Assembly: GCF_032854445.1 (NCBI RefSeq)
Contig: NC_088295.1
Location: 88,706,644 to 88,770,643 of the forward strand
Source: Liolophura sinensis
Taxonomy: Eukaryota; Mollusca; Polyplacophora; Chitonida; Chitonidae
Length of the DNA: 64,000 nt
Reading direction: 5' to 3'
Shown: one piece after another, positions 23,595-61,967 of the stretch
Position numbering within the stretch: position 1 is the first letter of the stretch
Layout of the letters: each line of letters starts with the position of its first letter
Notes under the pieces: model-generated
Database searches by the model: none
Told to the model about the DNA's origin: nothing
What the model saw: only the letters and a program-made list of their open reading frames with translations
Position numbers and translations under genes: made by a program

Positions 23595-23705
23595 TTAGAA
23601 CCTGTCCAGGTAACTGGTCAGAAAGTCCTCTTCAAAAGGCTGCTGTTCCACGAACACCTTAGTGATAGAATGAATCTCTGTTTTCCCGGATTCAAGGGTA
23701 ATCAC
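23595..23705 (-). CDS. DYNC2I1: WDR60 exon 27: C-terminus and stop
   Basis: Acceptor CTTGTTTGTAG. Encodes VITLESGKTEIHSITKVFVE then QQPFEEDFLTSYLDRF and TAA at 23595-23597. Confidence 0.9.
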   Translation of the reverse strand: MITLESGKTEIHSITKVFVEQQPFEEDFLTSYLDRF

Positions 23706-26700
23706 CTACAAACAAGAATTTGAAGAATCACACACAAGATATAAAAGCTTAATTTTATCACATAAAGACAAGAATGTGAAGAATCACACGCAAGATATAA
23801 GAGCTTGAGGTAATCACAATAAGCCACACAACACCACAAGGTTATTAAAATCAGTTACAGTTTCTTATGGATGATAACTTATATCAGCTCCTTTACACAT
23901 GGTAAGCCACAGTTCTGTACACGGGCTGTGAATGTTCCCAGAGTAGCCATGGAAGGAATGCTGGATACTCACCAGTTGCGGGTGTCTACCTGGCTCACCG
24001 CTCCCCCTGGAATAGGTGTCTGGAGACAAGGACAGACCTACAGCTCTGTGAGGGAAACAATGATACAAGACAAAGTTAAGGCACAACTCCACATTTTTAC
24101 ACTATTCAGCAAAGCATACGTTAACGTTACAAATCAAGAATATCCTAATTACATTAGACTAGTAACCATGTGAATGCAATACAGTCTTCCAGGGTAAGAG
24201 ATAATGTGACTATGTACTGTAACAAGTGGCAATACATGTCATAGAATGTTTTGTCATCTGAACCCACGTACAGTGTACGGTAACTCACCGTGGGTACAGC
24301 AAAAACAGCCTCAACAACAACAATAATGGAGCTTAAACTAATTATATTATAAGAATCGTAATTCCTTGTCTCAATCAGTGATGATAAAAAGCATTGATAA
24401 AGACGCAACAGCAGAAGAGGCAGCAGTAATAACTGTCACAGACAGAGTATATTATCCCACCGGGCTGACAACATGTTACAGCTGCACAGAAGCGGACAGG
24501 GCAATAGTTTCAGGTATACAGGTGAGAATCATGGGATCAGCGTTTACCTTCCTGGCTGTATCTGGTCAACAGATGCTGGGACAGAGTCAGTCTCCACCAG
24601 GTCATACACGGTCAGTGTGGAGTTATTATAGAGGATGTAGAACACTGCAGGCCTGCTGCGAGACCACTGGACACTGACCACACCAACGCCGTCATCCTGT
24701 GGTGGCCAGGTGATCAGGGCCTTTTCTGAAACACCAGCACACATCATAAAGTTAGATGCTATGACAACAAAACGTTTGACTGATTGATGTACTGACTGGC
24801 ATTTAATGCTGCACTCAGGATAGTATACGAGGGAAGGTTTACCATGGTCGTGGGTTTCCTCCTGGCTCTGTTCGGTTTCCTCCCACCATAATGCTGGCTC
24901 ACTGCGTATAAGTGAAATATTCTTCAATACAGTATAAAATACCAATCAAATACATAAATATATACATAAATGTAAACAGAGGAGACAGGAATATCTCAAG
25001 ACCTCCTTGAAAATTGCTGGGATTGAAGCCACGCAGTGACCCGAATATTACCTATTTTTGCGTTATTATATTAATGTTATGTTATTTGCGTCGGGTATAT
25101 TTCTCAAGAAGTAAAAGTTACAAACCTTTTGTTAATCCCACCCACAACATTGTTTGTTAAGTAAATCTTTAAAAATAATTAAAAAATTGAAAACCAAAAA
25201 GTCTGCCACAATATTTAGATGAGGTGCTGTGAATTAAGCAAAAATGGAGCATGTGCACAACTCTTTATGCCATGCCAGTTGTGGTACAATATGTGTATCT
25301 ACAGTATAATACTTAGATGGAGCAATACTGACCGAGTAGGAAAGATAGCATGATCACACTGTCAGTTTCTGTCACCCACACGTACCTCACTTGACATGTT
25401 TGTTTTGACCAGAACCTTCCAAACGCTAAGCATATGCTTCAGGTCCTGCCATTTACATATTAATGAGGCCAAATGGCCTGTGCTCTTTGTGTTGAATTCA
25501 AATAACAGCAGGACTTCTCCGGCCTTGTACCAGCTACATACTCAATGAATTTTTTTTATTTTAATGTGAGTAGTTATGATCGAGCTTTAAAACTTAAAAA
25601 ATTTGTTTAAAAATCCGAATTTTGGGCAACCATGTCACTTTAAACTGACATGGAGTGATAAAAAGACAAGCCCATGAACTGGGAGTCCATGACTTGTCCC
25701 TACCTCTGGCTATTGACAATTCCCCAAGCAGATTACAAATTACGGTCATAAAATCTACTCTCACTGTTCATGAGGTCTTGGTGACACTAAAATGAAATAA
25801 TAATGAGATCTTTGTGAAACGAAAAGGTTGACAATGCTCAAGTAGCAGTTTGTACACGACAACATTTGTTGAACATAACTTGTCTTTCGCCAATAGTGTG
25901 CGCATATCTGTCCGTCATATGTAGGACTTGCCAAAGGCTGGCCTTTCATTACAGGCACTCTGGTTTCCTCCATCTTTAAAACTGAATGTCATGTTGTAAG
26001 CAAAAATGTTTTGAATACACAATCAAATAATTAAATTAAACGAATATAAATAATATGACTGCTATGACATTTAAAAATCTGTCCCAAACACATGTAAAAA
26101 TGAAAATGTATTTTAGCCTTGTATTTTGCTACAGCTCTGCACATCCTTGAGCATGTGTGGTCACAGTATTTTTGTAATGTTAGACTTCTAAGCTGACCTT
26201 AGCACGATTGTGGAGCTTGACAACAATGAATATGTAAATTGTTCAGTGTGTTATGCAGATACACAGTTCAACCAGGTCTGAGAAAGAGAAATGGAAGATG
26301 CTGAGCACTTACTTGAGTTGGTATGATAGAGTCTGACCGTACCATCAGCACAACCAGCCTGAAACACACAACAACAATAAATACAGGCTTATAGATGTAG
26401 CTTTTGGACTAAAGTCTGCCTAGTGACCCATGCTACGATATAACAGCTTTCTTATCACAGAGACTGAGGCATAGTCAAGTAACGCAAGTCATGCAAAACA
26501 CTTCGTATCTGTCAACACGGGAATAATTAAACTTTTACACCCAGATTTCTTAACATAAAACACATACAATTTTGAACCTGCTTTTTTTAAAGTTTGAGTT
26601 CAGTTCTTTTATAAGTGATAACACCTACATGTATACATATGAAAGTCAACTTGGGTCAGGTTGAACAAAAAAAATGCTACTTACAAGAAAACAAGGTTTG

Positions 26701-29700: not shown

Positions 29701-32700
29701 AAAGAGCAAGGTCAGTACACACACCGGTATATAACACCTGACACAATAACACCCACGGCAACCATCGCATGGGGAAAAGGTTCTCTATCAAACATACTCA
29801 AGCTATTTTTATACATCACTGAGATATTCTTGGTTTCCATTGGTCAATACATAATCACATGATATTCCACAAAACACGAGATATAAAGGATAATGTGCTC
29901 AAGCATAGCCATGTCACACTCACACAGTAATACCCCACCTTCACAAGGCAATAGCCAACGATATGGCATTATCAACTACTTTTATTCTACTCCAGTTATC
30001 TCCCTTTGTGTGCTCTCTGACATCTGCCTGTCTGTAAACAACTGGCTATGACAATGGCTACTTCTGCTATCAGTGTAGAACTTCAGCAACTTAACAAATG
30101 AGCACATAAACTCTTATTTTTTGTTTACAGTGTAATGAAACATATGGTTCATATTGTGGAATGTTAGCCAGATGTCTGTGTCCCCACGCCTCACACACTG
30201 TAAGGTTAGGGTCAGGTATGTATCTGTGTTGTAGGTGGGATGTCTGAGCCAGATGTCTGTATCCCCAAACCTCACATATTGTACAGCTAGGGTCAGATAT
30301 GTACCTGTGTTGTAGGTGGGATGTCTGTATCCCCACACATTACACATGTACTGTAAGGTTAGTGTCAGATAAGTACCTGTGTTATAGGTCGGATGTCTGT
30401 ACCCCCACACATCACAAATGAACTGTAATGTTAGGGTCAGATAAGTAACTGTGTTGTAGGTGGGCTGTCTGAGGCAAATATCTGTATACCCAGACCTCTC
30501 ACAAAGTACAGAGGTTAGAGTCAGACACATACATGTGTTGTAGGTGGGGTGTCTGAGGCAGATGTCTGTGTCCCCAGACCTCACACATGTAAGGTAAGGT
30601 TAGGGTCAAACACATACCTGTGTTGTAGGTGGGGTGTCTGAGGCAGATGTCTGCGTCCCCAGACCTCACACACTGATGTAATGAGGCTGCTTCTCTTAGA
30701 TCCCACAACGCCAGAGATCCATCCACCTGGCAATGGAATAAAGCAGCTATATGAACAAACCACAGCTTCTGAACACCACTTCCTAAAATTGTGCACAAAG
30801 CAAGAAAAAAGCAAGAAAAAGTGTGTGTCGTTTTATTTTGAACGTGCCTCTTCAATACCAAGAGAAACCAGGTAGAAATATTAAAATCATATCACAGATA
30901 CACTATTGAACAGAGCTAACACCACAGTTCAACAAGATATATGATGAATAACTCCCCTATAAGCGAGTCCTCAACAACAAAATCTTTAACAGTTTCTGAA
31001 GATGAATCAGGCAGATGTGACGTTGAGTATAAAGGCAGTTATGCTGGAATGGCTTCATGTGCGCTTGGAAGTATGACATCATTACTGTGTCAGCAATGAG
31101 TGATCCACATTTAATTCCACATTAACCTTCATACAACAGAGGTTTTAATACAATGTATTTTTTTTACAATTTAGGAAAGCAATTCAGATCTCGATCCTTA
31201 TCATTTAACCCTACTTTAAGACATGCAGGTCTTGACAGTGGAGTAGCTCTTTAACACTGATACAAATTATGGTTTTCAAAATCTATATGGCCTCCACCAT
31301 CATCTTGAGAGAATACTGAATTATCATCATGTAACATATTCTGACAGTCCAAACAGATCCAAGGCAGCAGCTGGGGGAACCTGACAAGATTAGTGCATTA
31401 TCAGTCCTCATCATACATACATACATCATGCTGACCATTTCCATAGTTTGTTACTGAGTGTCTAGTCTCTGGGATTTGCGGGATACCAGACTTACCATAC
31501 CAGCAAACACCAGAGCTGAGTGAGATGGACTAAAACAGCAGGAGCCCACCATGGAATCACAGACCAGAATCCTGCAAACACACAATCAGAACATCACATG
31601 TCCACAAAATTCTACACCAGTATTTGTCTACTGCCCCAGAAATGGTTTACAGCTACTGTATTTCAAAAAGTATGTCAGAAGAACATGAACGTGTTAAAAT
31701 GATACTTATCTTCCAGCAACCTGTGGATGATCGTGGGTTTCCTCCTGGCTTCTCCCACGGTTTCCTTCCACCATAATTTTGTATTAGTGAAATATTCTTG
31801 AGTATGGCGTGAAACACCAGTCAAATAAACAAAATAATACTTCCGATGCTTACAATTAAATTCTTCTGATAGGAAATTAATCAAACTTAAAAAAACACAG
31901 AAAGTGGCTCTATAAGGTAGATGAATCAATGAGAGCCAAGTAAAATGTGCCATTTGACAAAATGATACAATGCACTGTGAAACAGAACAGAAATAGTATA
32001 TCTCAAGGCTGACCCATTAAAAGAAGTAAATCATCTTATTAACAGACATTCCTTGAGTTAAAAAACACAGGCAGAGCTTTCCAATAACAGTTGGCAGTAC
32101 CCCCAAAAAGAATGTTTTTGTTTCATAATGAAGTGTGGAATTGAAATATCAATAATACCAGACAACTGGTATCACATATGAATCCCTGGAGATCGGAGCG
32201 GTATATAAAAAGCTGCAGGTACACATGTGACTTGACTATTATACTTTGCCAATCAGTATCCCCATTTCTATGGAGTAAAAAGCCTCATGAGTTCTGTTGG
32301 AAACAAACACGCCTTTTGTGATATACTGTAAATCTTCAATCTGTGTAATTTATCCTTACAATTATTATGAAAATGATGCTAAAAATGATTTGTTTGTGTC
32401 ATTAAAGATACAAGCTTCATAAAATTGTGCAATTTGCAAATTTCTCTACATTCCACTATTCTCTCAGAAAATTTCAAAATATTTGTTGCACAGGCAGTTG
32501 AAAAGGTTAAGAATTAGGAAATACAGAGAAATTTGTGAAAACCTGTGCCTAGACATACTGGAATCCTGTCAACATTAGTCACTGCATGCGGTCCACTTTT
32601 CCGTCCATTTAAAGTACATACAATCCAACCTTGATATACTGAAATCTGAGAACTCTGAACAGCCGCTGAGTTAATTCATCCTCTTCTGTACAAGCAATGC

Positions 32701-35700: not shown

Positions 35701-38700
35701 GGACCTTTCCATGCCGGAAGCCGGGGAGGGGTGCCTAGCAACGCCAAGGGGACGTCACTCACAGCCTCATCACCACCTGTCTCCTTGTGTCCTCTCACCC
35801 AGAATTTCAAACTTTCATCAATAAAACTCATACCTGCCCAAAGCTTAGACAATTTCCATCATTTTGATACCAAGCATGCACCTGTACACCAAAAATGGCA
35901 GGCTAGCAGCAAAAAAAAGACTTTACACCCTAAAATGCACCAGAATTACAATCCCGAAAAACGGAAGATGTAATGGGGATCTGTGTCCAGTAAGCAATAG
36001 CTCAGCAAGGTCACAAAATTTAAGCATTTTCACACACATTCACACAGCCAGCCGATTTCTGGCACTTCGGAAACCATGCCTCAGGCACGCGAAATGTCTT
36101 AACTAACAGGTTTCGATTTGGAAGAAACTCTCGGGAATTGGAAACGAAAAATAAGTACACGTATGTACGAGATCATATGCCGATGGAATTATAGTGCATA
36201 AATTTACAAAGGACATTTTTAGACATGGCGCTAGGTACTGCGGATTCACAGAGGGATGGCGGACGTTCCGAGAGGCATGGCGGAGTGCCATTTGATAAAA
36301 CGCTAGCTAGGGCTCTGCGATGCCCCTCTGGAGAGATCAGAATACACTCTAATAAGGCGAGATCATGTACACTATATACATCTGACACATATGTACACCA
36401 CAAGAGACAAGCATCACTTGTAACTTGAGGAAAGTTCTATCAGTAAAGCTATACTCACGCCCACACACAACAGCGTCATCTGATGGGTGCTGCGACCATT
36501 TGTCCATGGATTCTAGCTCCTCTGTCTGGATTTCACGCTCAATGTTATCCTCATTTGTCTGGACATACACCTTCACAAACCAGAAAAGTGCACAGTTAGT
36601 TCACTCAATGCTAACCTCGTGTCAGGCCTGCCATGCCTGTTTTGTTTCAGGGTGGACAAAGTTACGGTTGTGCTGTAAGACAGACATACCTGTATTGTGT
36701 CAGGGCGACCAAAGGTATAGATATAGTGTGAGATAGACATACCTGTCTTGTGTCAGGGCAACCAAAGGTATAGATGTAGTGTGAGATAGACATACCTGTC
36801 TTGTGTCAAGGTGGCCAAAGTTATGGATGTGCTATGAGACAGACATACCTGTATTGTGTCAAGGTGGCCAAAGTTACGGTTGTGCTGTGAGACAGACATA
36901 CCTGTCTTGTGTTAGGGCGACCAAAGGTATAGATGTAGTGTGAGATAGACATACCTGTTTTGTTTCAGGGTGGACAAAGTTATAGTTGTGCTGTGAGACA
37001 CACATACCTGTCTTGTGTCAGGGTGACCAAAGGTATAGATGTAGTGTGAGATAGACATACCTGTTTTGTTTCAGGGTGGACAAAGTTACGGTTGTGCTGT
37101 GAGACAGACATACCTGTCTTGTATCAGGGCGACCAAAGGTACAGATGTAGTGTGAGACAGACATACCTTTTTTGTTTCAGGGTGGACAAAGTTACGGATG
37201 TGCTGTGAGACACACATACCTGTCTTGTGTCAGGGTGACCAAAGGTATAGATATAGTGTGAGATAGACATACCTGTCTTGTGTCAGGGTGACCAAAGGTA
37301 TAGATATAGTGTGAGATAGACATACCTGTTTTGTTTCAGTGTGGACAAAGTTACGGACGTGCTGTGAGGCAGACATACCCGCCTTGTGTCAGGGCGACCA
37401 AAGGTATAGATGTAGTGTGAGATAGACATACCTGTCTTGTGTCAGGGCAACCAAAGGTATAGATGTAGTGTGAGATAGACATACCTGTTTTGTTTCAGTG
37501 TGGACAAAGTTACAGATGTATTATGAGATAGACATACCTGTCTTGTGTCAGAGCACCCACAGGTATTGATTTAGCATGAGACAGACATACATGTACCTGT
37601 CTTGTGTCAGAGCGGCCAAAGTTACGGATGTACAGGTCATATTCCTTCACAGGGGGCAGGTCAAACATATCATATGAAGCCACATCCAGGTCAATCATTT
37701 GTAAAAGGTCACGCCCTCTGACACGTGTCTTGTTGCTGGTCTTGTCACTGAGTGTTCGTTGTTTGGCAGACACAAAGTTAATGAATGTTCTCTGCTGAGG
37801 AATCTTGTGATGGGACCTGTCATCCGAAGGTTCTGTCTGTGGTGACAAATACAAGGGAGTGAACTCATCTACTGAGAGCAAAAACAGGTTTGTATTTAAC
37901 ATCCCACAATATGGAAACAATAAAGGAACAAAAGCCTACTCCAACAAGTGATCTTAATCTCTGAAGATCAATCTGTCACACTCACAAATAAGATACTGTG
38001 TTAAAGCAAAGATTTGCTGGTGTAATTATTTTCAACTACCATTAATCCCAAGTAAGGCTTTAGAGCCAGGTATAACTCCTTCCAGCCCAAGGGGAGATGA
38101 TGCCCATGCCTGGGTTCACAAAACAATCTTACATTTCTGTCAAAATTTCAATCATTAAACATAGTGTGTTCCTTTCTGTTATTTTCAGCTGAAATTTGAT
38201 ACATAACAACTTACCCAGAATTTACAAGGTCAAGCAATATTTTGACCTTGTTCCATAAGAAATACCAATCTTAAGTAATTTGAAATTTTGGCTTAAGTCT
38301 ACGACTCCGGGGCCAAAAGTGTAAGCTAGGACACATAAAAATATATCGACAAAGTGACAGACAGATGGAAAGACTGATAATTACAATGTGATTGGGGTTA
38401 TAATTATAATGAAATTTCTACAAGTAAATATGAATTAAAAACTAATTTCCTGAACATTTTTTTTGAAGTCAGTAAATGAAAAAGAACAGACCGAGTCAGA
38501 TGCATAACTTCTACGTGATTCGGCCATGAGCCTGTCATTCTCCGCATCCAGCGCCTTCAACACTTCATCAACTTCATTCTGAGGCTGCGGAACAAAAACA
38601 CAGCAGAGAAATTTCAGAACACTTGGCAACATGAATTGTATTGACAATGTACCCAGATAAATGTCGTGTCTTCTTATGAAATGCAAGCTAAACCATTAGT

Positions 38701-41700
38701 TATGCATGTACACAAAAAAAAAGTAATCTGTTCTTACTATATGGGAATAAACTGTGCTTAAACTAGTTTACAAACACTATTAAACCTGTTAAGTCAAATG
38801 ATAAAATATAACAATTTATAACATGTACATGTACAAACCAAGTTAACAGTGAAAGATTTCCCTGGTAGTTTCCAACCACCATAATGCTGGGGTGTATTCT
38901 GGACTATGGTGTAATTAATTAAAGAACACCAATTAAAGAAATCAATAAATCAATCTCCAGGGTCTACATGTGGATGCGGTATCAATGTTAACATAACTTA
39001 GTATCAGTTAAAAAAACACAGCTCACAAAAACACTTAGTACAGACTTCAAACAAAAGGAGATGTTAGAGTTATGATGAGGTGAAGGGTTATTAGAACATC
39101 ACAGTGAGATTGAATAGACATCACACATGTGGCACTCAGATGTGAACCCAGCACTGCAATCCATATTACTAAAACTGGACAGATGGATAAAAAATGTGAT
39201 TACTGCAGCATTTGGGTGCCAGTTCCGTCCGAGAGAAGCTACATGAACTGAAGTGTTGGTAGGATGAGCAGACTCCTGTATAGTAACCTCCTTCAGCATT
39301 AAATAATATAAACACAAGAACTAAGTAAATAAAACTCCTGGATATCCATGTGAAATAGATGAACTCTGTAGTGCAAACAGCATAATACTGCCTTACTGTA
39401 AAAATAACTGTAAAGCAGTACTATGACATAACTACTAAAACAAGTTCATAAACATTGTAAATGTAAGTTTAAAGAGACAATCTACCCTGGCTAAGTGTAC
39501 AGAGAGATAAATTTGTATGCAGAGGAGCTTTACAGACAAGTGTTTGGTGAAGACAGGCACAATGAAGTCCTTACCTTGCCACTGTTACTGTCACTGTCCT
39601 CATCATCATCCTCAAAATCCTCATCATAGTCCTGCATTATAACAAGGACAATCATTCAGCTTTGTTTCTGTAACACAAAACTTCACAACCTTGCTAGTGA
39701 AACCAGTTTCCATAGTCAATGTGTCTATTATAGCAGGTGTGCCTGGGATAACAAACAACCCAAATTGTTCACTGTAATTTTCTTTATGCCATTAATCAAT
39801 AGGAATGTATTACCAGATCCACGGACAGGCACTCCAAATATCAAGCTATATTATACTATGCTATACTAGCCTACACCTTCAATACATAACAGTTTACCTC
39901 AAAGTCATCCTCGTAATCATCACCCACATCTTCAGCTGCAGGAGCTAAGTTTGCAGGCTCCCGGATATCTTTCTCCCCATCCCTTGAGGAAACCTGTAGA
40001 AGCAGATAGTAACAGAAACACAGTAGATGAAGATGTGACATTAACGTTTGCAGAATTTCCCAGATATCACTGGAATCATGACCCATAAGTGATATTCACC
40101 TAACAGCCATGTTTATCCATCCACCATATAAAATTGGCAACAATCAATAGGGGAGATTGATTTAAGATCTGTGATTCACCAAATATATAGAATACTGAAA
40201 AAGAAACATAGAAATGATGAAAAGATTTCACATGAGAGGGCATGAAAAATTGCTTGTAAATACACTGTATGGTCTTTCCAACTTATAAGGTGGTATATAA
40301 GTTGTCTTTGCATGATAACATTCTAAAGAAGTAAGTGATGCATGTCTAATAAATTTATCTGAATGTAAATCTTACATCTACATCCAAACACATACGTCTA
40401 ATGTGAATTATGGTAATATTTATGAATACAATAAAAATATAAACATGATTAAAATTCTGTTTATACACACAAATTCGAGCACAAATACATTTAATAAACA
40501 AATCTCCTATTGGATCATTATTATTCAAAGATAAAACACCAAAAGGTGGACCCAAATAACCATAATACAAAAATTCTTTTGAAAGAAAATCTAAAGAAAA
40601 TATTGAAGACAACATTTACAAAATAACTTTTTACACAAGTTTAAATAAGTCTACATAATTTTAATGTTTCCTCCATCCTTAACATATAATGTCAACTTAA
40701 CATCTATCTTGGTAACCCATTTAATATCTGGTGGAGCAATTCTGTGATATCCCAATGTTTTGGAAGTCAGGAGAGTGGTAACATAAAGCAATCAGCAAGC
40801 TGACATGATACTCTGAGACTACTCTGAAGTCTGGTGTCATTAGTACTGTAAAGGGGTGATGTATGTCCTTGATTCACTTAAAGATATATGGAATGCACCC
40901 GGGAGTTTCTCTAGATGAATCACTTGATACTTGGTGAATATAAGGCTAATTATTCCACTTCAGGCCAACAACCAGGAAACACAGCCACAATATCAACTTA
41001 TCGTTTCACAAACACAATCAGCCTCACACACTCCCTAACAATTATTTTATTCATCAATAAGATATCTTTTTTGTCTAAAATATGTTCATTTGTTAAAACC
41101 TAGTGCAGTCAAACTCATCCTACTACCAAATGTGCTGCAATATACAGAGGAGATTACATTGAAAATATAATGGTACTTTGTCCCTCAAGATTTACTTGTG
41201 TATCCATCGAGCTGGAGGTTTTGTTCTTGTTCATTGCATCAAGCCAATCAACAAGAGTTATCTCCCTTTAGACTCAATAATTCAAAAGTATACATTTTCA
41301 TCAAGTTTATTGCAAAACGCATGACATCCAAGGATTTCAAATAAAAAGAGCAAGCTAATGAAACATACCTCATCTTCCCTGGAATCATCATCTCTGTGGA
41401 GTCTTTTATCATCTTCATCTCTGTGCCATCTTCTATCATCATTTTTGTGATGCCTTCTATTGTCGTCATCTTTATGTCTTTTGTCATCATCTCTGTATCT
41501 TCTTCTGTCATCATCATCTTTGTGTCTTCTTCTCTCACCTTCATCTCTGTGTCTTCTTCTGTCATCATCACCTTTATGCCTTCTGCTGCCATCATCATCT
41601 CTGTGTCTTATTCTGTCATCATCATCTCTGTGTCTTCTTCTGTCCTTATCATCTCTGTGTCTCCTTCTGTCATCATCATCTCTGTGTCTTCTTCTGTCAT

Positions 41701-44700
41701 CATCATCCTTGTGTTTTCTTCTGTCATCATCACCTTTATGTCTTCTTCTGTCATCATCATCTTTATGTCTTTTTCTATCATCATCATCTCTGTGTCTTCT
41801 TTTGTCATCACCTTTATGTCTTTTTCGGTCTTCTTCATCTTTGTGCTCTCTCCTACCATCTTCCTTGTGTCTTCTCTCATCGTCATCTTTATGACGCCTT
41901 CTTTCATCATCCTTTTTGTGTCTTCTCTCATCATCATACCTGTCATCATTTTTTTTAGATTTCCGTCGTTCTTCATCTTTGGTCGACTTTCCTCTGTCCT
42001 CAGATGCATCTTTTCTTCGCCGCTCGCTGTCTTCCCTTTCTCGTTCATGGTGGGACTTTCTCTCCCCATCCCTGTCATGTTTTCTGTCATCATCCCCACG
42101 ATGTCTCTTATCCCGATCTCTGTTTCGGTGGTCACGCTCATCATTCCTACCATTATGTTTATTATCCTTGCTGTTTATTTGGTCCTCTACTTCTCTCTGT
42201 AAACAACAAATATATCTGCTTTAGATCCTATGTAGGATCACCGATAATAAAGTAGAAATAAAAGCATCTCCACATAGATTTTAACTGTTTACACTGGTTT
42301 TTAATTCTCTAGCCCAATTTTCATCACGAGAATTGATCTCGGGATAAGGAAAGAAAGCTACTGTAGTTTAAACTGTTAACTTTAGGTCATTTGTAGATGC
42401 CTTTATTTCTTCATTAATAAAAATACTGGTAAACCTGAAATTCATGTGAACATTAAGAATCAGTATCAGTACCAAAAGAGGGCATACCTCCTGCTTTATT
42501 TTTGTGTCGAGGAGTACACATCTAGAGCTGAGTACACAATCACACCAATTATACTAGCAGACAACATATCGTCTATATTCCACTACAGTCATCTCACAAG
42601 CACTCCGGAAATACCCTATGTATGTTCATATACAAATGCATGTGCATACAAATTACAGCAATGTGTAATACATGTATTCTCTGCTCTTATCTCAAAACTC
42701 TACCAAAGAAAATCATAGCCAAGCATAGGAAACCTAAAAATGAGGTCATTATTTTAGGCATCTTGGAATCGAGAAAATATCCTCCATTTTCAATATACAC
42801 AAAGAATGGGCAAGTAAATCACCTATTCAAATGGAATGTATATTTATAACTCACTGATTTCCTTTCTTCCCTCTTACGCCGATGCCTCTCTTCTCTTTCC
42901 TCATCTCTATTATAGCGGTCCTCTTTCTTGGCATCATATTTGTCCTTTAAATCAGACAGATCGGGAAGCACTTATACTGACAATAACATAATTGCATGCA
43001 TACTTTTATATTCTGAAAATATGTCTTTCTTTACTGCAAAATAATTTTGATCACTCAAAGTCTGATCAGAAGGCAATGGTCAGTAGGAGTGACTTCCCTT
43101 TATCCCAGACCACATAAATGCAATCACCATGACAATGGGATCTACACACAATTAAAACTCTAAATTTATTTTGATGGTAACAATGGAAAAGTAAAGATAA
43201 AAACTTTCTATCAAGCTAATGAAAAATGCTCCAAAAAACATTTCATTTCCAGTATTCTACAACTTAAATAGATTCTCAACTTGTGAATACTGTAATTACC
43301 CATAGTGAACATTTGGTGATGACTGTGTGAAATTTTTCCATTATTTTGTACACGTTACATTATTTTTATAGTTATGTGTTCTGAAACCAACAAAAGATAC
43401 ATAATTAAAGTACAGGACATTTTACAGCAAAACTGAACGAATGAAATGAAAGAACCATTAATGAATTTCTTTCACCATGAAATCTTCCAAAACAGGGGAA
43501 CCCTGTAAAGAACAATTTTGTAAAAGTTGGAACGCTTTGCATTCAGTTAACTATGCTACGAATAAAACTCACTTCATCCCTGGAGTGACGTGATCGGCTA
43601 CTGTCATTTTTATGCCGGGACTTCCTGTCATCTTCCTTGTCTTTACTATGCCTTTCCTTACGATCTGAAATTATAGACAACAACCAATGCTGGGAATGAA
43701 TACTGTCATGATTAACATCCAAATTTATCCCACATCCACAAAGGTAAGATTTTTTAGCAAAGTAATAGTCTAACTATAGAATTTACACTAAGCACAGAGT
43801 CAAAGTTACCCATGGGGATATTCAATAGTGCGTTGTTAACAATGATAAAAGATTAACAAGAAGTTCAAACAATAGCATGTGACAGAGTCTGTCCATAAAA
43901 CCCAAATAAAATTCAACTTTCAGATGGAACAAATCATAAACCTTTTAGAAACGATCAGCGTGGTTGTCCCTGCTTTAACACGACTCGTAGAGGCCAGTAG
44001 AAAACTATGAGATGTTCTTGTGTACAAATTAGTAAGCCTTCCTCGTAGATTTACAATGTAACCTCTTCCCTTCAAATGAAAGTGGCTTGTACTGGGCAAC
44101 TGCCCATGTTCAAATGCAGGTTCCACTGACTGTGGCTGGAAATTTGCCAGTTACCAGGTACATGCAGTGGGGCATTCCCTGTGCTGCATCGGTTTCTTTC
44201 ACTCATGACCCTGTCTGCATGTATATTCTGACATACAAGTGATTTTGCCACCTTTTAAAGCTCAGTGAAAATGCACATACAGTTGTCCTCATTCCACTAC
44301 TATTTAAGGTGGTAACCAGAAAAGGATTTTTTTTGTATAGTTTAATTTGAATATCAACACACGATAATCAACACATTAGACAAGGCTAATTAATTATTAT
44401 ACAGATGTGCTACTATTTTGACCTTTGTGGCCATGCAACTTTTCTCGTCTACCTTTCCCTTTATCATCTGCATTAGCCTTGTCTTTTTTGTGTTCTCTGC
44501 CATCCCTCTTGTCGCCCCGTTCACCCCGGATCTCTTTTAAGGACTTCTCTAATTCTTCTGGTCTCCATGTGTCCTCCTTCGATCTTGTCTATAATCAGAA
44601 CAAAATGTATCACAAATACCTGAAAATAGCTGAATGTAACACAATTTGTAGGCTTGCATGCCATGCATGTATACGTACCATTGTATAAAGCTTACAGTTA

Positions 44701-45709: not shown

Positions 45710-46254
45710 CTTTGTATGTAACCCGAATTGTCACACTTAACCTTGCATTGTCAGTGTGTCACCACTTAGTCCAATGTCCCCAGTTACATGTATTTTCTTC
45801 AGATTATTTACATCTCCAACGCCGCCATTTTCAAGCTTGTCAGGTATGTCCGTAAAGCGGACAGTTAGCTTTTTACGACATTCACATAATGGACTCGCCC
45901 AAATGAGTGGGGATAAACAAACTTATTTTCCTGAAAATAAGCCAGAAAATACTGAAGAGAGGCGCAAGATCAACCTATCCAAATTTGAACTCAAAAATAT
46001 ATTAATCTGTGTCAGAAGTGGTCCACTTACTTATGATATCGCTTTCTGCTAAGCTGTGCTATTTAGGACACCCCTACTATTCACGCAAAGGGTGTGACAA
46101 CGACCTGGTCCACAGTAATCAAGCCGGTCTGACGGAGAGGGTAGCAGGGGTTGAAACTCCAGAAGAAACTGTTTACAAACTACACCTGCGTCAAAGTCAA
46201 TTTCACTGATCAATGCTTGTCTGTCTCTGTGCTAGAGACTGATACGATTTGGAG
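45710..46254. promoter_or_regulatory. Bidirectional promoter region between WDR60 and E-Syt
   Basis: The 545 bases between the proposed WDR60 start (45709, minus) and the E-Syt start (46255, plus) must hold both promoters if the first exons are right. A perfect YY1-type site AAAATGGCGGC (minus, 45821-45831) lies ~120 bases upstream of the WDR60 ATG and points toward it, as YY1 sites near start sites usually do. No TATA box seen. Confidence 0.55.
45821..45831 (-). promoter_or_regulatory. YY1-type site AAAATGGCGGC
   Basis: Matches the AANATGGCGGC core exactly. The ATG within it opens a tiny upstream frame (MAALEM, then stop) ahead of the WDR60 start. Confidence 0.45.
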
Positions 46255-52500: not shown

Positions 52501-55500
52501 GCATAGCCAAAATAATGCAGTTCAAAGTATGTAAAATCTCGTACTTGAGAAAATCAAAAGCACCAGCATGTCATCAGTTTTATTCAGATGTTAATTCTGC
52601 CTGTAACTCGAGCGCACAGCTATGGACTAATGCTGACTGAATCAACTTGCATGACATCAGAATCTTCAGTTTCCTTGTCACCAGCCACCCACTCATCATC
52701 TCACCTGTACACCCATGTCCGAAAACATTGAGGTGGCTGACTGGTTAGAGTGTACTGCTCAATCGTAGGAGCCCTAGGTTCAACTCTGTCAATCATCAAT
52801 CCATTTAACCACCCACCCACCTGTACCCGTCAGGCCCTGGGTTCAACCCTCTCAGTCATCACCCCACCACCCATTTAGTTATCAACCACCCACTTGTTTT
52901 GAAACCAATGCAGTCGCTGTGAGCTCAAATCCAGCTCATGCTGGCTTCCTCTCCGGTCATATGTGGGAAGGTTTGCCAACAACCTGCAGATGGTCGTGGG
53001 TTTCCTCCAGGCTCTGCCAGGTTTCCTCCCACCATAACGCTGGCCGCCCTCGTATATATGAAATATTCTTGAGTATGGCATAAAACGGCAATCAAATAAA
53101 TAAAATAAATAAATAATGTACAAGTCCATGCTGATTAAGAACGTCTGGGTGGCACAGTGAAAGGAGCGTGGTGCCTTGAATGTGGTGTATCTGGTGTACA
53201 CTCTCATGTTGGGACACACCTGATTATAGAATCAGTAACATTTGTGCCTTGAATGTGGTGTATCTGGGGTAAAGTCTCAAGTTGAGAGACACCTGATTAT
53301 AGAATCAGTAACATTTGTGCCTTGAATGTGGTGTATCTGGGGTAAAGTCTCAAGTTGAGACACACCTGATTTTAAAATCGGTAACATTTGTGCCTTGAAT
53401 ATGGTGTATCTGGTGTAAAGTCTCAAGTTGAGACACACCTGGTTTTAAAATCGGTAACATTTGTGCCTTGAATATGGTGTATCTGGTGTACACTCTCAAG
53501 TTGAGAGACACCTGATCATAGAATCAGTAACATTTGTGCCTTGAATATGGTGTATCTGGTGTACACTCTCAAGTTGAGATGCACCTGATTATAGAATCAG
53601 TAACATTGGTGCCTTGAATATGGTGTATCTGGGGTAAAGTCTCAAGTTGAGAGACACCTGATTATAGAATCAGTAACATTTGTGCCTTGAATGTGGTGTA
53701 TCTGGTGTAAAGTCTCAAGTTGAGACACACCTGATTATAGAATATGGTAACATTTGTGCCTTGAATGTGGTGTATCTGGTGTACACTCTCAAGTTGAGAC
53801 ACACCTGATTATAGAATACGGTAACATTTGTCCCTTGAATGTGGTGTATCTGGTGTAAAGTCTCAAGTTGAGACACACCTGATTTTAAAATCGGTAACAT
53901 TTGTGCCTTGAATATGGTGTATCTGGTGTAAAGTCTCAAGTTGAGACGCACCTGATTATAGAATACAGTAACATTTGTGCCTTGAATGTGGTGTATCTGG
54001 TGTACACTCTCAAGTTGAGACACACCTGATTATAGAATCAGTAACATTTGTGCCTTGAATGTGGTGTATCTGGTGTACACTCTCAAGTTGAGACACACCT
54101 GATTTTAAAATCGGTAACATTTGTGCCTTGAATATAGTGTATCTGGTGTAAAGTCTCAAGTTGAGACACACCTGATTATAGAATACGGTAACATTGGTGC
54201 CTTGAATGTGGTGTATCTGGTGTACACTCTCAAGTTGAGACACACCTGATTATAGAATACGGTAACATTTGTGCCTTGAATATGGTGTATCTGGTGTACA
54301 CTCTCAAGTTGAGACACACCTGATTATAGAATCGGTAACATTTGTGCCTTGAATATGGTGTATCTGGTGTACACTCTCAAGTTGAGATGCACCTGATTAT
54401 AGAATCAGTAACATTGGTGCCTTGAATATGGTGTATCTGGTGTAAAGTCTCAAGTTGAGACACACCTGATTATAGAATACGGTAACATTTGTGCCTTGAA
54501 TGTGGTGTATCTGGTGTACACTCTCAAGTTGAGACACACCTGATTATAGAATCGGTAACATTTGTGCCTTGAATATGGTGTATCTGGTGTACACTCTCAA
54601 GTTGAGACGCACCTGATCATAGAATACGGTAACATTTGTGCCTTGAATATGGTGTATCTGGTGTAAAGTCTCAAGTTGAGACACACCTGATCATAGAATA
54701 CGGTAACATTTGTGCCTTGAATATGGTGTATCTGGTGTACACTCTCAAGTTGAGACGCACCTGATTATAGAATACGGTAACATTTGTGCCTTGAATATGG
54801 TGTATCTGGTGTACACTCTCAAGTTGAGACACACCTGATCATAGAATACGGTAACATTTGTGCCTTGAATGTGGTGTATCTGGTGTACACTCTCAAGTTG
54901 AGACACACCTGATTTTAAAATCGGTAACATTTGTGCCTTGAATATGGTGTATCTGGTGTAAAGTCTCAAGTTGAGACGCACCTGATTATAGAATACGGTA
55001 ACATTGGTGCCTTGAATGTGGTGTATCTGGTGTACACTCTCAAGTTGAGACACACCTGATTATAGAATCAGTAACATTTGTGCCTTGAATGTGGTGTATC
55101 TGGTGTACACTCTCAAGTTGAGACACACCTGATTTTAAAATCGGTAACATTTGTGCCTTGAATATAGTGTATCTGGTGTAAAGTCTCAAGTTGAGACACA
55201 CCTGATTATAGAATACGGTAACATTGGTGCCTTGAATGTGGTGTATCTGGTGTACACTCTCAAGTTGAGACGCACCTGATTATAGAATACGGTAACATTT
55301 GTGCCTTGAATATGGTGTATCTGGTGTACACTCTCAAGTTGAGACACACCTGATTATAGAATCGGTAACATTTGTGCCTTGAATATGGTGTATCTGGTGT
55401 ACACTCTCAAGTTGAGACGCACCTGATTATAGAATCAGTAACATTGGTGCCTTGAATATGGTGTATCTGGTGTAAAGTCTCAAGTTGAGACACACCTGAT

Positions 55501-58500
55501 CATAGAATACGGTAACATTGGTGCCTTGAATGTGGTGTATCTGGTGTACACTCTCAAGTTGAGACACACCTGATCATAGAATCAGTAACATTTGTGCCTT
55601 GAATATGGTGTATCTGGTGTAAAGTCTCAAGTTGAGACACACCTGATCATAGAATACGGTAACATTTGTGCCTTGAATGTGGTGTATCTGGTGTACACTC
55701 TCAAGTTGAGATGCACCTGATTATAGAATACGGTAACATTTGTGCCTTGAATATGGTGTATCTGGTGTACACTCTCAAGTTGAGACACACCTGATTATAG
55801 AATCGGTAACATTTGTGCCTTGAATATGGTGTATCTGGTGTACACTCTCAAGTTGAGACACACCTGATCATAGAATACGGTAACATTTGTGCCTTGAATG
55901 TGGTGTATCTGGTGTACACTCTCAAGTTGAGACACACCTGATCATAGAATCAGTAACATTGGTGCCTTGAATATGGTGTATCTGGTGTAAAGTCTCAAGT
56001 TGAGACACACCTGATCATAGAATACGGTAACATTTGTGCCTTGAATATGGTGTATCTGGTGTAAAGTCTCAAGTTGAGACACACCTGATTATAGAATACG
56101 GTAACATTTGTGCCTTGAATATGGTGTATCTGGTGTACACTCTCAAGTTGAGACACACCTGATTATAGAATACGGTAACATTGGTGCCTTGAATATGGTG
56201 TATCTGGTGTACACTCTCAAGTTGAGACACACCTGATCATAGAATACGGTAACATTTGTGCCTTGAATGTGGTGTATCTGGTGTACACTCTCAAGTTGAG
56301 ACACACCTGATCATAGAATCAGTAACATTGGTGCCTTGAATATGGTGTATCTGGTGTAAAGTCGCAAGTTGAGACACACCTGATTATAGAATACGGTAAC
56401 ATTTGTGCCTTGAATATGGTGTATCTGGTGTAAAGACTCAAGTTGAGACACACCTGATTATAGAATACGGTAACATTGGTGCCTTGAATATGGTGTATCT
56501 GGTGTACACTCTCAAGTTGAGACACACCTGATTATAGAATACGGTAACATTTGTGCCTTGAATATGGTGTATCTGGTGTAAAGTCTCAAGTTGAGACACA
56601 CCTGATTATAGAATACGGTAACATTTGTGCCTTGAATATGGTGTATCTGGTGTACACTCTCAAGTTGAGACGCACCTGATTATAGAATACGGTAACATTG
56701 GTGCCTTGAATATGGTGTATCTGGTGTACACTCTCAAGTTGAGACACACCTGATTATAGAATCGGTAACATTGGTGCCTTGAATATGGTGTATCTGGTGT
56801 ACACTCTCAAGTTGAGACACACCTGATCATAGAATCAGTAACATTGGTGCCTTGAATATGGTGTATCTGGTGTACACTCTCAAGTTGAGGCACACCTGAT
56901 TATAGAATCGGTAACATTTGTGCCTTGAATATGGTGTATCGGGTGTAAAGACTCAAGTTGAGACACACCTGATTATAGAATACGGTAACATTTGTGCCTT
57001 GAATATGGTGTATCTGGTGTACACTCTCAAGTTGAGGCACACCTGATTATAGAATCGGTAACATTTGTGCCTTGAATATGGTGTATCTGGTGTAAAGTCT
57101 CAAGTTGAGACACACCTGATTATAGAATACGGTAACATTTGTGCCTTGAATATGGTGTATCTGGTGTACACTCTCAAGTTGAGACACACCTGATTATAGA
57201 ATCAGTAACATTGGTGCCTTGAATATGGTGTATCTGGTGTAAAGTCTCAAGTTGAGACACACCTGATTATAGAATACGGTAACATTCGTGCCTTGAATAT
57301 GGTGTATCTGGTGTACACTCTCAAGTTGAGACACACCTGATCATAGAATACGGTAACATTGGTGCCTTGAATATGGTGTATCTGGTGTACACTCTCAAGT
57401 TGAGACACACCTGATTATAGAATCAGTAACATTGGTGCCTTGAATATGGTGTATCTGGTGTACACTCTCAAGTTGAGACACACCTGATCATAGAATCAGT
57501 AACATTGGTGCCTTGAATATGGTGTATCTGGTGTACACTCTCAAGTTGAGGCACACCTGATTATAGAATCGGTAACATTGGTGCCTTGAATATGGTGTAT
57601 CTGGTGTAAAGACTCAAGTTGAGACACACCTGATTATAGAATCAGTAACATTGGTATCACCTCATTTCATGCTATGCCCAGTATTAGAGGAATACACCAC
57701 ATTCGTTAGTCTTGATGTATAAATGACTGAGTAGGGCATCGATGTGTCATGTGCAGCATGACATTTCAGTGAGACACGGTTATAAATGCTAGCATTGAGT
57801 CTCCTCGGTTACATGGACAACTTGCAAACACTGATTTGATTTGACGTTAAACCTCCAACAAACTACCTCCAATGACAAACAAACATTTGAATGCTTCTCC
57901 ATCAGATGATATCAGTATTGATTGACAAATTGTTGTCAGAATTCCAGAGATATCATCATGGAAAAGGTTTTGTTTGTCACTCAAGTTTGATGTTGTCAGT
58001 TGAGACTGATGCTGCCATCTATTTGCCCTACATTTGGAGTTATGCACCAGGTGCTTGGTGGAACCGCAGCAATCCACACTGAAACCAGATCCAGAGACCC
58101 TGTAAAATTACAGACACACTCCTACATGTATCTCCAGGGACTATAATATACTTGACAGTAGGATTCATTAGCCGTGTGGCAAACAGAGCATTTTTTACCA
58201 TGTGCATGTTCAGTTATTGCTTGACTTTAATGGAAATAGGACAGTGTTTTAATGTACATGTACTTTTCTGAGGCACCAATGCAACAAATCCTTAACCAGA
58301 CCTGTGTTTGTAGGTTTGCATGTTTGCAGCTGACTTTTGCTTTTTTTCAGCCCTAGTTGCAGCCGTATCTAGTATTTTATAGCCCAAGCCAAAGTTACAC
58401 TGTAGCCCAAAAATTATAGCCCATAATATTGTAGCCAAATTCTCTTGCATTACACTTCCGGCACTTTGAAGTACATGAATGGTTGGCAAATGCTCATCAA

Positions 58501-61500
58501 AACAAATTTGTTCTTTTCGATCAGGAATATGACATGTTTGCTAACAAAAGCAAACTTTTGCTCTGGATAAAATATATTCATATACATTTGCCAGACTGTA
58601 GAAAAGTATTGAATGTCATATAAAATATTCGCCAATTTCCCATAGTGTCAATCAAGTAGCAGCTGCAACTGTGTGCTTCATATATGCAAATGTATCTGTG
58701 TATTTCTTCAGCCCCTTGCTGCTCTGCGACCATTATTAAGTACCTGTGATCATGTGTGCCTGACTTCCATGACAAGATGCCAGCTTTGTGCTAACATCTC
58801 CCTGTGATCACGTGTGCCTGACTGGCATGTCAAGATGCCAGCTTTGTGCTAACATCTCCCTGTGATCATGTGTGCCAGACTGGCATGTCAAGATGCCAGC
58901 TTTGTGCTAACATCTCCCTGTGATCATGTGTGCCAGACTGGCATGTCAAAATGCCGGCTTTGTGCTAACATCTCCCTGTGATCATGTGTGCCTGGCTGGC
59001 ATGTCAAAATGCCGGCTTGGTGCTAACATCTCCTTGTGATCATGTGTGCCTGACTGGCATGACAAGATGCCAGCTTTGTGCTAACATCTCCCTATGATCA
59101 TGTGTGCCTGACTGGCATGACAAGATGCCGGCTTGGTGCTAACATCTCCTTGTGATCATGTGTGCCTGACTGGCATGACAAGATGCCGGCTTTATGCTAA
59201 CATCTCCCTGTGATCATGTGTGCCTGGCTGGCATGACAAAATGCCGGCTTTGTGCTAACATCTCCCTGTGATCATGTGTGCCAGACTGGCATGTCAAAAT
59301 GCCAGCTTTGTGCTAACATCTCCCTGTGATCATATGTGCCTGACTGGCATGTCAAGATGCCGGCTTTGTGCTAACATCTCCCTATGATCATGTGTGCCTG
59401 ACTGGCATGACAAAATGCCAGCTTTATGCTAACATCTCCTTGTGATCATGTGTGCCTGACTGGCATGACAAGATGCCGGCTTTATGCTAACATCTCCCTG
59501 TGATCATGTGTGCCTGGCTGGAATGACAAAATGCCAGCTTTGTGCTAACATCTCCCTGTGATCATGTGCGCCAGACTGGCATGTCAAGATGCCGGCTTTG
59601 TGCTAACATCTCCCTGTGATCATGTGTGCCAGACTGACATGTCAAGATGCCAGCTTTGTGCTAACATCTCCCTGTGATCATTTGTGCCTGGCTGGCATGT
59701 CAAGATGCCAGCTTTGTGCTAACATCTCCCTGTGATCATGTGTGCCTGACTGGCATGTCAATATGCCGTCTTTATGCTAACATCTCCCTGTGTCATGTGT
59801 GCCTGGCTGGCATGACAAAATGCCAGCTTTATGCTAACATCTCCCTATGATCATGTGTGCCTGACTGGCATGTCAAGATGCCAGCTTTGTGCTAACATCT
59901 CCCTATGATCATGTGTGCCTGACTGGCATGTCAAAATGCCGGCTTTGTGCTAACATCTCCCTGTGATCATGTGTGCCTGACTGGCATGACAAGATGCCGG
60001 CTTTGTGCTAGCATCTCCCTAATAGTATGGCCAACTCTACCCACTAGTGTCATGTTACACTGCCAGACCCCACCCTACATGATCACTTCCCTCTGCTGCT
60101 CATTCACTCTGACAACTCCCACATTTCAGGAAATACCTACCTCTATCACTAGTGTGAGATGATTTCAGCAAATTTCAAAGTAGTCAACTGGCAATGCGTT
60201 CCTGATGTACATGTACCGTTATAGACATGCAGGTACATGTGAGCTTGTTTGCAGGATAATGTGTTCAAATTATGGCCACATAAAGCAGTATTTATTGATA
60301 CATTGATTAATTTAGCCATTGTATTGTGAGGATAGCTTAATGCCATATGTGAGCACCTAGGTGGTGTCAGAGATCTGAAGGGTTGTTGTCAGGACGACCC
60401 CAGCACCATAGCTGATCCTGTGGTGATGTGTTTAAGTGATTGTCAAATTACAATCTACATGAACATGCAGCGCTGTAATTTGTAAAGGCATGTAATTTAT
60501 AAGATAACCTTCATATTTGTAAAGAGTGTCAGATAACATGTGTGCAATCTTATACCTGTGGTACCTAACAACTAGAGACTTATTGTCAGAATGAACTCTT
60601 CAACATGTACGATCCATATGCTACCCACAGCCCAGGTTACCTCAGCCCAGCTAGGTCAAACACCTACATTAATCATGACAGACTGTCTCGGTCTTCATTT
60701 AGGTCATGTTACCCTACCCTACCATGACAATAGTGGGTGGTGGAAATGCCTTGTGCATAGTGCATGGTTCTGTAACAATACATCATAGACATGTAACCTC
60801 AGTGTGCTGTGTTTAACTCCCACAGTGTGTGGTTGACTGGTAAATACCCGTATATGCTGAATACTACAGACATGGACCACATTACCTGTCTTGTCATCTG
60901 TAGTTACTAGTGTCCATTTGCGCTGACAAAAAATATTGTATATTTTAACAAAAGCACAACAAACTGAACGAAAAAAATGTAAACGGATGAGGGCAGTGTG
61001 TAATGGATGTGCTATTTTAAATCAGTTTGGTGTGCTTTGTGTTACCTATCAGTGTGCTGTGTGTTACATATCAGTGTGCTGTGTGTTACATATCAGTGTG
61101 CTGTGTGTTACCTATCAGTGTGCTGTGTGTTACATTTCAGTGTGTTACATATCAGTGTGTTACATATCAGTGTGCTATGTGTTCCATATCAGTGTGCTGC
61201 ATGTTACATGTCAGTGTGCTGCATCTTACACATCATTGTGGTCTGTGTTACACATCAATGTGCTCTGTTACATATCTGTGCTCTGTGTACGTATCAGTGT
61301 GCTGTGTGCTACAGATCTTTGTGCTGTGTTACCTATCAGTGTGCTGTGTGTTACATATCAGTGTGCTGTGAGTTACATATCAGTGTGTTACATTTCAGTG
61401 TGCTGTGTGTTCCATATCAGTGTGCCGCATGTTACATGTCAGTGTGCTGCATGTTACACATTGTGGTCTGTGTTACACATCAGTGTGCTCTGTGTTACAT

Positions 61501-61967
61501 ATCAGTGTGCTCTGTTACATATCTGTGCTCTGTGTACATATCAGTGTGCTGTGTGCTACAGATCTTTGTGCTGTGTGTTAGAGGTCATTGTGTGATGTGT
61601 GTTACAGATCATCATGTTGTATGTTACATATCAATGTGATGTGTGTTACAGATCAGTGTGCTGTTGTTAGAGGTCATTGTGTAATATGTGTTACAGATCA
61701 GTGTGCTGTGTTTTAAAGATCATGATGTTGTGTGTTACAGATCAGTGTGCTGTTGTTCGAGGTCATTGTGTAATATGTGTTACAGATCAGTGTGCTGTGT
61801 TTTACAGATCATCATGTTGTGTGTTACAGATCATAGACCAGATGTGGCCATATGTAGGGGACTATGTGGTTGACTACATCAAGACTAGCCTGGAGCCATC
61901 CATCAAGAAGAGTCTACCAGGCTCACTCCAGTCCTTCAAATTTGTAAAGATGGATTTGGGAGACATT
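46255..61967 (+). CDS. ESYT2: Extended synaptotagmin (E-Syt), first three coding exons
   Basis: E-Syts are ER-anchored tethers that bind the plasma membrane through C2 domains and move lipids with an SMP domain. Exons 46255-46539, 52312-52353 and 61830-61967 are all phase 0 and give 155 codons: a charged N-terminus, a hydrophobic hairpin anchor (residues ~28-55), a Lys/Arg/Glu-rich linker, LPSW-VIFPDVERAEWMNK, then the SMP domain start IIDQMWPYVGDYVVDYIK. The WxxFPDxERAEWxNK motif is diagnostic. The SMP remainder and C2 domains must lie right of 64000. The symbol is by homology; invertebrates usually have one E-Syt equally related to vertebrate ESYT1-3. Two huge introns (5.8 and 9.5 kb) carry the window's largest repeats. 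Confidence 0.95.
46540..47099. other. E-Syt intron 1, left part; poly(C)/poly(T) run
   Basis: A C13-14 run followed by T9 lies at about 47071-47098 immediately before the large inverted repeat. Otherwise nothing recognised. Confidence 0.4.
47100..49690. mobile_element. Large foldback element with ~0.75-kb inverted arms
   Basis: Arm 47100-47880 (plus) matches arm 48955-49690 read in reverse over its whole length with moderate divergence. Shared blocks include CATACCTTAGCAT, ACCATGCACTGTTCATTTTC / GCCATGCACTGTTCATTTTC, GAGCTGCTATAGGTCAGGTG, CTTTCTTGTGCAAATGACC-complements and GACAGCAACAATGTTATTA. The ~1.07 kb spacer has no transposase-like frame. A non-autonomous foldback DNA transposon is the likeliest identity. 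Confidence 0.85.
49691..51692. other. E-Syt intron 1, right part
   Basis: No exon recognised. At about 51250-51370 a CTTTCACAAATTTGTTAGG...AAGTTACGAAAAA segment resembles a small CACAAA-type foldback element. Short open frames at 50186-50434 and 51386-51670 have no family match. Confidence 0.35.
51693..51854 (+). CDS. Small open frame, possible alternative E-Syt first exon
   Basis: A 53-codon frame reads MDEPSKWHAMKYLFSEFCPD then HTLYVTFSIAVFSILAKF. A donor-like TTGTAC|GTAACA at 51764 is phase 0 and would join in frame to VIFPDVERAEW 0.55 kb downstream. That transcript would lack the membrane hairpin. No homology is recognised, so it may be chance. Confidence 0.2.
   Translation: MDEPSKWHAMKYLFSEFCPDHTLYVTFSIAVFSILAKFSPDNFLCNTPVHSVK
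51855..52311. other. E-Syt intron 1 sequence before exon 2
   Basis: AT-rich, nothing recognised apart from the exon 2 acceptor at its right end. Confidence 0.4.
52312..52353 (+). CDS. ESYT2: E-Syt exon 2 (42-base microexon)
   Basis: Acceptor TATCTTTCCAG, donor AACAAG|GTGAGT. Encodes VIFPDVERAEWMNK, the most conserved E-Syt motif just before the SMP domain. Confidence 0.97.
52725..53115 (+). repeat. SINE copy with tRNA-like head
   Basis: Head TGGCTGACTGGTTAGAG (A box) and AGGTTCAACTC (B box) about 40 bases later are tRNA-like. The body at 52975-53080 has CAGATGGTCGTGGGTTTCC, ATAACGCTGGCCGCCC and GAAATATTCTTGAGTATGG, with an AAATAAATAAA tail. A second GGTTCAACC at about 52843 suggests a duplicated or composite head. 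Sense to E-Syt. Confidence 0.8.
53168..57655. repeat. ~73-bp satellite, about 61 copies, E-Syt intron 2
   Basis: Units of 72-74 bases contain GTGCCTTGAATATGGTGTAT, CTGGTGTA(AAG/CAC), TCTCAAGTTGAGACACACCT and GAAT(ACGG/CGG/CAG)TAAC. Variation is concentrated at a few positions (AAG/CAC, TTATAG/TCATAG/TTTTAA, TTTG/TTGG), and blocks of several units recur together, as in higher-order repeats. Open frames here are by-products of the repeat. Confidence 0.97.
57656..58740. other. Gap between two satellites in E-Syt intron 2
   Basis: Unique-looking AT-rich sequence. A short TTTATAGCCC / TGTAGCCC / TATAGCCC repetition lies near 58375-58440. No exon recognised. Confidence 0.45.
58741..60022. repeat. 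58-bp minisatellite, about 22 copies, with hairpin
   Basis: Unit: TGTGATCATGTGTGCCTGAC, TGGCATGACAAGATGCCAGC, TTTGTGCTAACATCTCCC. CTGGCAT and ATGCCAG within the unit are perfect inverted copies with a 6-base loop. Main variants are GACA/GTCA, AAGA/AAAA and CCAGC/CCGGC. Confidence 0.97.
60023..61029. other. E-Syt intron 2 between arrays
   Basis: No exon or repeat recognised. Confidence 0.4.
61030..61829. repeat. 15-22-bp minisatellite running into the E-Syt exon 3 acceptor
   Basis: Units like TCAGTGTGCTGTGTGTTACATA (22 bases, with 15-base and longer variants) fill 800 bases. In the right third the unit becomes GTGTTACAGATCA(GTG/TCATG), which is the same as the real acceptor and exon start GTGTTACAG|ATCATAG. 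Long plus-strand frames of Cys/Val/Tyr-rich sequence are artefacts of the repeat. Confidence 0.95.
61830..61967 (+). CDS. ESYT2: E-Syt exon 3: start of SMP domain
   Basis: Acceptor GTGTTACAG directly follows a tandem array of the same sequence. Encodes IIDQMWPYVGDYVVDYIKTS, LEPSIKKSLPGSLQSFKFVK and MDLGDI. Donor GACATT|GTAAGT. Confidence 0.97.

Follow-up and report, generated by a model that had tools for sequence, protein, structure and literature searches.

Background

Tandem arrays that span exon-intron borders are already known, as far as the available passages of the sources describe them, from amphioxus (as "mirages"), the human CBS VNTR, human border repeats and AGGT dual sites. Amphioxus mirages were described in Adh3, in the globin genes BflGb6 and BflGb9, in TnC and in PGBD5; in these accounts both 5' and 3' borders are affected, many copies retain AG/GT, and normal splicing is reported to be left undisturbed (PMC3087553, PMC3902484). 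The human CBS VNTR, c.1444_1467+7(16_21), has a 31-bp unit which by its name comprises 24 exonic and 7 intronic bases and is present in 16 - 21 copies (PMC2630376). In human segmental duplications, internal tandem repeats at exon-intron borders were described with 27 intron modifications (PMC2812944), and dual-specific AGGT splice sites in tandem repeats were described in UBC and VCX3A (PMC10809524).

Here we describe an array in the WDR60/DYNC2I1 gene of the chiton Liolophura sinensis, located in a stretch of 64,000 nucleotides that was analysed as a whole (the window, G000:C1:88706644-88770643), together with the frequency of similar arrays in the same genome. As in the amphioxus mirages, the chiton array spans an exon-intron border and its copies keep splice signals; amphioxus, however, is a cephalochordate and the chiton a mollusc, the BflGb6 haplotypes described have 6 and 3 units as compared to 18 in WDR60, and recurrence in the chiton was counted over exon samples, whereas the amphioxus passages concern single genes. 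The unit consists of an exon end plus a donor in both the CBS VNTR, which is reportedly associated with effects on enzyme activity (judging from a reference title), and the WDR60 array, but it measures 31 bp in the former and 53 bp in the latter, and the CBS repeat is polymorphic while the WDR60 array is known from one assembly. The human border repeats likewise represent minisatellite expansion at borders (PMC2812944), but they occur in primate paralogues of recent origin, for which RNA evidence is available and new introns are described, whereas the chiton array is known from DNA alone. AGGT dual sites share with the chiton array the repeated AG|GT elements in register; they were shown to be spliced and mark coding monomers in UBC, whereas the chiton repeats are intronic and their decoy donors predicted.

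The WDR60 array thus falls in a known kind, while a recurrence frequency of such arrays in a mollusc was not found in print; neither the recurrence nor the prior description of such arrays had been part of an earlier note on this DNA. In the open-licence literature, covered by titles and the beginnings of abstracts, no border arrays in a mollusc were found, the matches for minisatellites in chitons concerned Theileria parasites only, and the available part of an earthworm paper on intronic minisatellites does not describe border-derived units.

Structure of the WDR60 array

The array and its surroundings comprise the following features.

37597..37871, minus strand: WDR60/DYNC2I1 exon VDEFTP...SDTRQ (open frame and splice signals; human DYNC2I1 alignment; 5' end, 37871, by eye)
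37597..37632, minus strand: presumed seed, i.e., the last 36 exon bases, present in every unit (identities in 18/18 units)
37589..37599, minus strand: authentic 5' splice site CAG|GTACATGT (U1 duplex -7.1 kcal/mol; human alignment across the join)
36637..37596, minus strand: minisatellite of 18 units x 53 bp, with 6 extra bases ahead of the first (TRF, spacing, identities)
36636..37537, minus strand: decoy donors, with first intronic bases at 37537 and then every 53 to 36636 (17 GT, last GC)
36459..36570, minus strand: next WDR60 exon VYVQTNEDNIEREIQTEEL..., protein VYVQTNEDN (acceptor AG ends at 36571; 3' end by eye)

The intron that holds the array is 1026 nt long (first base 37596, last base 36571), and the array occupies 960 of these bases; TRF placed it at 36632-37594, with a 53-bp unit, 18.2 copies, 81% matches and zero indels. 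Each unit is composed of 17 nt of intron-like sequence and a 36-nt copy of the exon end. The earlier note had described the array as copies of the last ~35 exon bases plus the donor, and this description holds for all 18 units, with a copied part of 36 nt and 27-31 of 36 positions identical to the exon end in each unit. This similarity is far above chance, as the best ungapped match to the exon's last 36 nt elsewhere (gene's strand, window positions 23000-45000) reached 20/36 (mean 8.9), and when the final 40 nt of the exon were locally aligned with the array, the score was 50 as compared to a maximum of 23 among 300 shuffles. The copies do not share the single sequence that had been claimed for them, as the exact ending GACACAAGACAG is present in 7 of the 18 units, while GAAACAAAACAG is present in 5 and other variants in 6 (by-eye count).

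Relative to the units, six extra bases (GTACAT) follow the real donor; the first decoy donor is therefore located 59 nt downstream of the real one, and the later decoys follow at 53-nt intervals. Nine units represent one type (type A) and eight another (type B), with mean differences per 53 sites of 2.9 within type A, 6.2 within type B and 12.1 between types. The unit on the exon side (u1) fits neither type, whereas the unit on the far side (u18) is an ordinary type B unit; 17 consecutive bases are identical between u1 and the exon end, yet with 29/36 identities overall u1 is no closer to that end than the other units. Human DYNC2I1 (6rlb_C) aligns without gaps over the join of the two exons (DTRQ|VYVQ as compared to human NTKQ|AYVQ). 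As the sequence of the exon VDEFTP...SDTRQ is conserved in the human protein, the exon predates the array, which is the derived element, and the proposal that amplification took place at the exon-intron border is well supported.

Other arrays in the window

Three further arrays in the window extend into, or copy, the border of a known or putative exon.

30166..30675, minus strand: second border-seeded array, at the WDR60 WD-repeat exon ...LRHPTYNT, last base 30618 (exon tail and donor copied five times, 72-85 nt apart)
23697..23818, minus strand: weak acceptor-side array of 2.2 copies x 56 bp that covers the first 9 nt of the putative last exon of WDR60, first base 23705 (TRF)
61030..61833, plus strand: 22-bp array extending into the acceptor of the SMP-like exon that begins at 61830, with only 4 nt of this exon covered (six exact copies of TTACAG|ATCA as decoy acceptors)

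Of these arrays, the two on the acceptor side are weak cases. The SMP-like exon at 61830, which we take to be extended-synaptotagmin-like, matched Pfam SMP_LBD below threshold (E = 0.0087; 16 bits as compared to a cut-off of 27), and a PDB search with an SMP-like peptide gave no matches. The window also contains a 27-bp coding repeat (RRRHKDDDD-like; 41384-41937, minus strand) in a putative N-terminal exon of WDR60, as well as two long minisatellites between the reading frame at 46243 and the SMP-like exon, i.e., a 74-bp array of 61 copies at 53171-57652, whose unit carries CAGGTGTGTC on the minus strand, and a 58-bp array of 22 copies at 58743-60020.

Frequency of border-straddling arrays in the chiton genome

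The frequency of arrays (period 20 or more, score 100 or more) that straddle the border of a domain match was determined in two samples of short exons. The kinase sample comprised 53 short-exon loci with 60 matches (101 kb), hand-picked among matches under 400 nt with their sequence unseen beforehand; kinase matches of the same size at C7:20735049, C1:64605010, C1:64598502 and C2:1036372 were left out. For the helicase sample, loci with matches shorter than 300 nt were taken in table order up to the 39th (43 matches, 64 kb). The straddling rule was adopted once the kinase result was known, ahead of the helicase scan. Borders in these samples represent the ends of Pfam matches rather than proven exon ends, and exons without a match add borders that the counts do not see.

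The kinase loci contained 14 arrays, 5 of which straddled a match border, at 5/53 loci (L038 and L041 on the acceptor side; L053, L062 and L077 on the donor side); among the 16 arrays of the helicase loci there were also 5 straddling arrays, at 5/39 loci and all on the donor side (L094, L095, L100, L118 and L120). The pooled number of straddling arrays (10/30 arrays in 92 loci) was greater than the 1.9 expected under random seeding, with none of 50,000 draws reaching 10, and also greater than the 3.5 expected under a stricter placement of whole arrays (P = 0.0015). For the kinase sample alone, the expected numbers were 0.7 under seeding (P = 0.00035) and 1.5 under whole-array placement (P = 0.013), and for the helicase sample alone 1.2 (P = 0.004) and 2.0 (P = 0.04), respectively; each sample taken singly is only modestly significant under the stricter placement. 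L062 passes the straddling rule at its limit (5 nt inside), and without it the count is 9/30. L121 straddles a border as judged from an exon end read by eye and is outside the 10, and three arrays that begin just beyond a match end (L113, L074 and L115) were likewise left uncounted. Among 28 long-exon kinase loci, no array touched the domain match (scored against the match and not against exon ends), and 4 arrays of the same size class were located elsewhere in these loci; the three samples together thus show straddling arrays at 10/120 loci.

At positions 272-847 of L041, which carries a kinase exon that we assume to be PAS-kinase-like, an 80-bp array copies the intron end, the acceptor and 18-39 exon bases, and AG is kept in six copies. 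At positions 737-1316 of L120, on a presumably Dicer-like helicase exon, the 122-bp units are mostly exonic.

The genome (609,464,459 bases in 632 contigs) was searched at the DNA level with sequences of four of these arrays. With 317 bases of the WDR60 array as the query, 5 matches were obtained, all in the array itself and its exon end, and matches of the second WDR60 array and of the L041 and L120 arrays were confined to their own neighbourhoods. With the qualification that this search ignores very common words, a dispersed satellite or a transposon-borne repeat is ruled out, including the independent genome-wide satellite that the earlier note had named as the finding that would speak against it. 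A further block of copies of the L120 array is located approx. 370 bases past the searched stretch. In the same genome, a concatemer-like contig (G000:C99) shows seven mitochondrial COX1 matches, beside a single mitochondrial contig (C632). The reading frames of the mitochondrial contig fit the gene order ancestral to molluscs.

Donor strength and predicted splicing

Donor strength was calculated as the duplex energy with the chiton's own U1 RNA, which starts ATACTTACCTG (locus L125). At G000:C10:30033968-30140539 there are at least 34 U1 snRNA matches, at least 33 of them over the Rfam cut-off and most approx. 2 kb apart in tandem; these counts are lower bounds, as 42 of 8309 candidates were scored.

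Eighteen decoy donors had been claimed for the WDR60 array; there are eighteen units, but only 17 carry GT (15 with CAG|GTATGT, one with CGG| and one with AAG|), and the last carries GC (GCATGG). The duplex energy of the real donor (CAG|GTACAT) was -7.1, as compared to -6.8 to -10.2 for the GT decoys and -4.5 for the GC decoy. The greater strength claimed for the decoys relative to the real donor therefore applies to 16 of the 18, with two decoys being weaker. Pairing is weak (-1.9) at a tandem alternative site located 6 nt downstream of the real donor. Use of the first decoy would add 59 nt and shift the frame, which our computation bears out as previously proposed, and use of any of decoys 2-18 would bring a stop codon into the message, as codon 29 of the retained intron; messages that use a decoy should therefore be lost.

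In total, we scored 11 donor-side arrays (the two in the window, the eight counted in the samples and L121). Copies were scored if they showed at least 20/30 identities to the real border, and 17 of the 18 WDR60 units were therefore scored. GT was kept in 85 of the 92 scored copies, and 61/92 equalled or exceeded the strength of the real donor. In the second WDR60 array, on the other hand, the real donor (-10.2) was stronger than 5/5 copies, and GT was lost in 2/5. A weaker first site facing stronger copies, as the earlier note had it, is thus found by U1 pairing in the array at 36637..37596, but is not supported as a general rule among the other arrays.

Origin of the array

We consider it very probable that the WDR60 array is a minisatellite seeded at the border, i.e., a mirage, which arose when the border was tandemly duplicated and expanded, with splicing most likely taking place at the first donor. 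A segment of approx. 53-59 bp across the end of the conserved WDR60 exon and the adjoining 5' splice site would have been duplicated in tandem; slippage, unequal exchange or gene conversion may then have expanded the array to the point where most of the intron was filled, and during this expansion the units would have drifted into two main types. Each copy would thus carry an exon end and a usable-looking donor. Exon definition provides a general basis for the splicing machinery to ignore copies of splice sites within an intron, and amphioxus mirages are said, in the passages available, not to disturb splicing; by analogy, the spliceosome presumably keeps the exon-proximal WDR60 donor. This first, exon-attached donor is most likely the one used because it alone stands beside a real exon with acceptor and enhancers, and because it is transcribed first.

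The array may alternatively be an ordinary minisatellite that started at the border by chance, and minisatellites are abundant in this genome (30 arrays in the 92 sampled loci). The share of sampled arrays that straddle a match border, however, exceeds the expected numbers under both placement models, and we therefore regard a chance origin as unlikely. We judge as improbable, too, that the array is what remains of an intron gain, in which tandem duplication of an AGGT-bearing exonic stretch made the intron itself. Intron birth by tandem duplication has reportedly been found in a potato gene (PMC4974935), and the 22-bp unit of L094 resembles exon sequence throughout (by eye); in the passages available, this model was also put forward for the amphioxus globins. 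It predicts that the array should hold the start of the next exon as well, but the head of the next WDR60 exon scored 14 against the array as compared to a shuffled mean of 13.1 (P = 0.38), and the next-exon head was also not above shuffles in L077 (P = 0.12) and L118 (P = 0.62; 40 nt from the match start, with approx. 6 intron bases included). The model is thus unsupported in 3/3 arrays, one of them with an inexact exon start, while the tail of the previous exon exceeded all 300 shuffles in the same three arrays. Moreover, the units of WDR60, L100, L118 and L120 are part exon and part intron.

The decoys might also be functional, either as an array of U1-binding sites or as potential 36-nt in-frame mini-exons, tuning splicing, retention or early polyadenylation. 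In line with such a role, GT is retained in most scored copies, and seven WDR60 units have an AG directly ahead of an open 36-nt exon copy (by eye). Furthermore, in arrays of at least six copies (six arrays), variability was lower in the donor hexamer than at shifted positions (minor-base fraction of 0.050 as compared to 0.096; P = 0.012), with P = 0.06 for GT alone. The lower variability is a hint only, however, as the copies were chosen by a similarity that spans the donor; in two of the six arrays (L053 and L100) another part of the unit varied less than the hexamer, and the losses of GT in the second WDR60 array also argue against such a role. Overall, a functional role appears very unlikely. 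An assembly or read artefact, to which tandem repeats are liable, is scarcely credible, as the WDR60 copies differ among themselves and the array is under 1 kb long, whereas the genome was assembled from HiFi reads with a mean length of 8,347 bp, as given in the part of the source available (PMC11068029); the species of that assembly was later corrected to Liolophura sinensis (PMC12441733).

Conclusions

The border-seeded origin of the WDR60 array can be set beside a broader proposal, for and against which we consider the chances to be evenly balanced, i.e., that splice borders in the chiton, chiefly donor sites, are preferred birthplaces of minisatellites. Approx. one short exon in ten would then carry an array of its own border, with a donor motif steadier than the rest of the unit, and a genome-wide, lineage-level process would feed duplicate splice sites into introns. 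The phenomenon is now countable in a mollusc, while the available amphioxus passages describe single genes. If splice borders are lineage-wide hot spots of tandem duplication, the chiton would offer many natural tests of how the spliceosome chooses among near-identical sites, and also of whether introns grow, or new exons arise, from such arrays.
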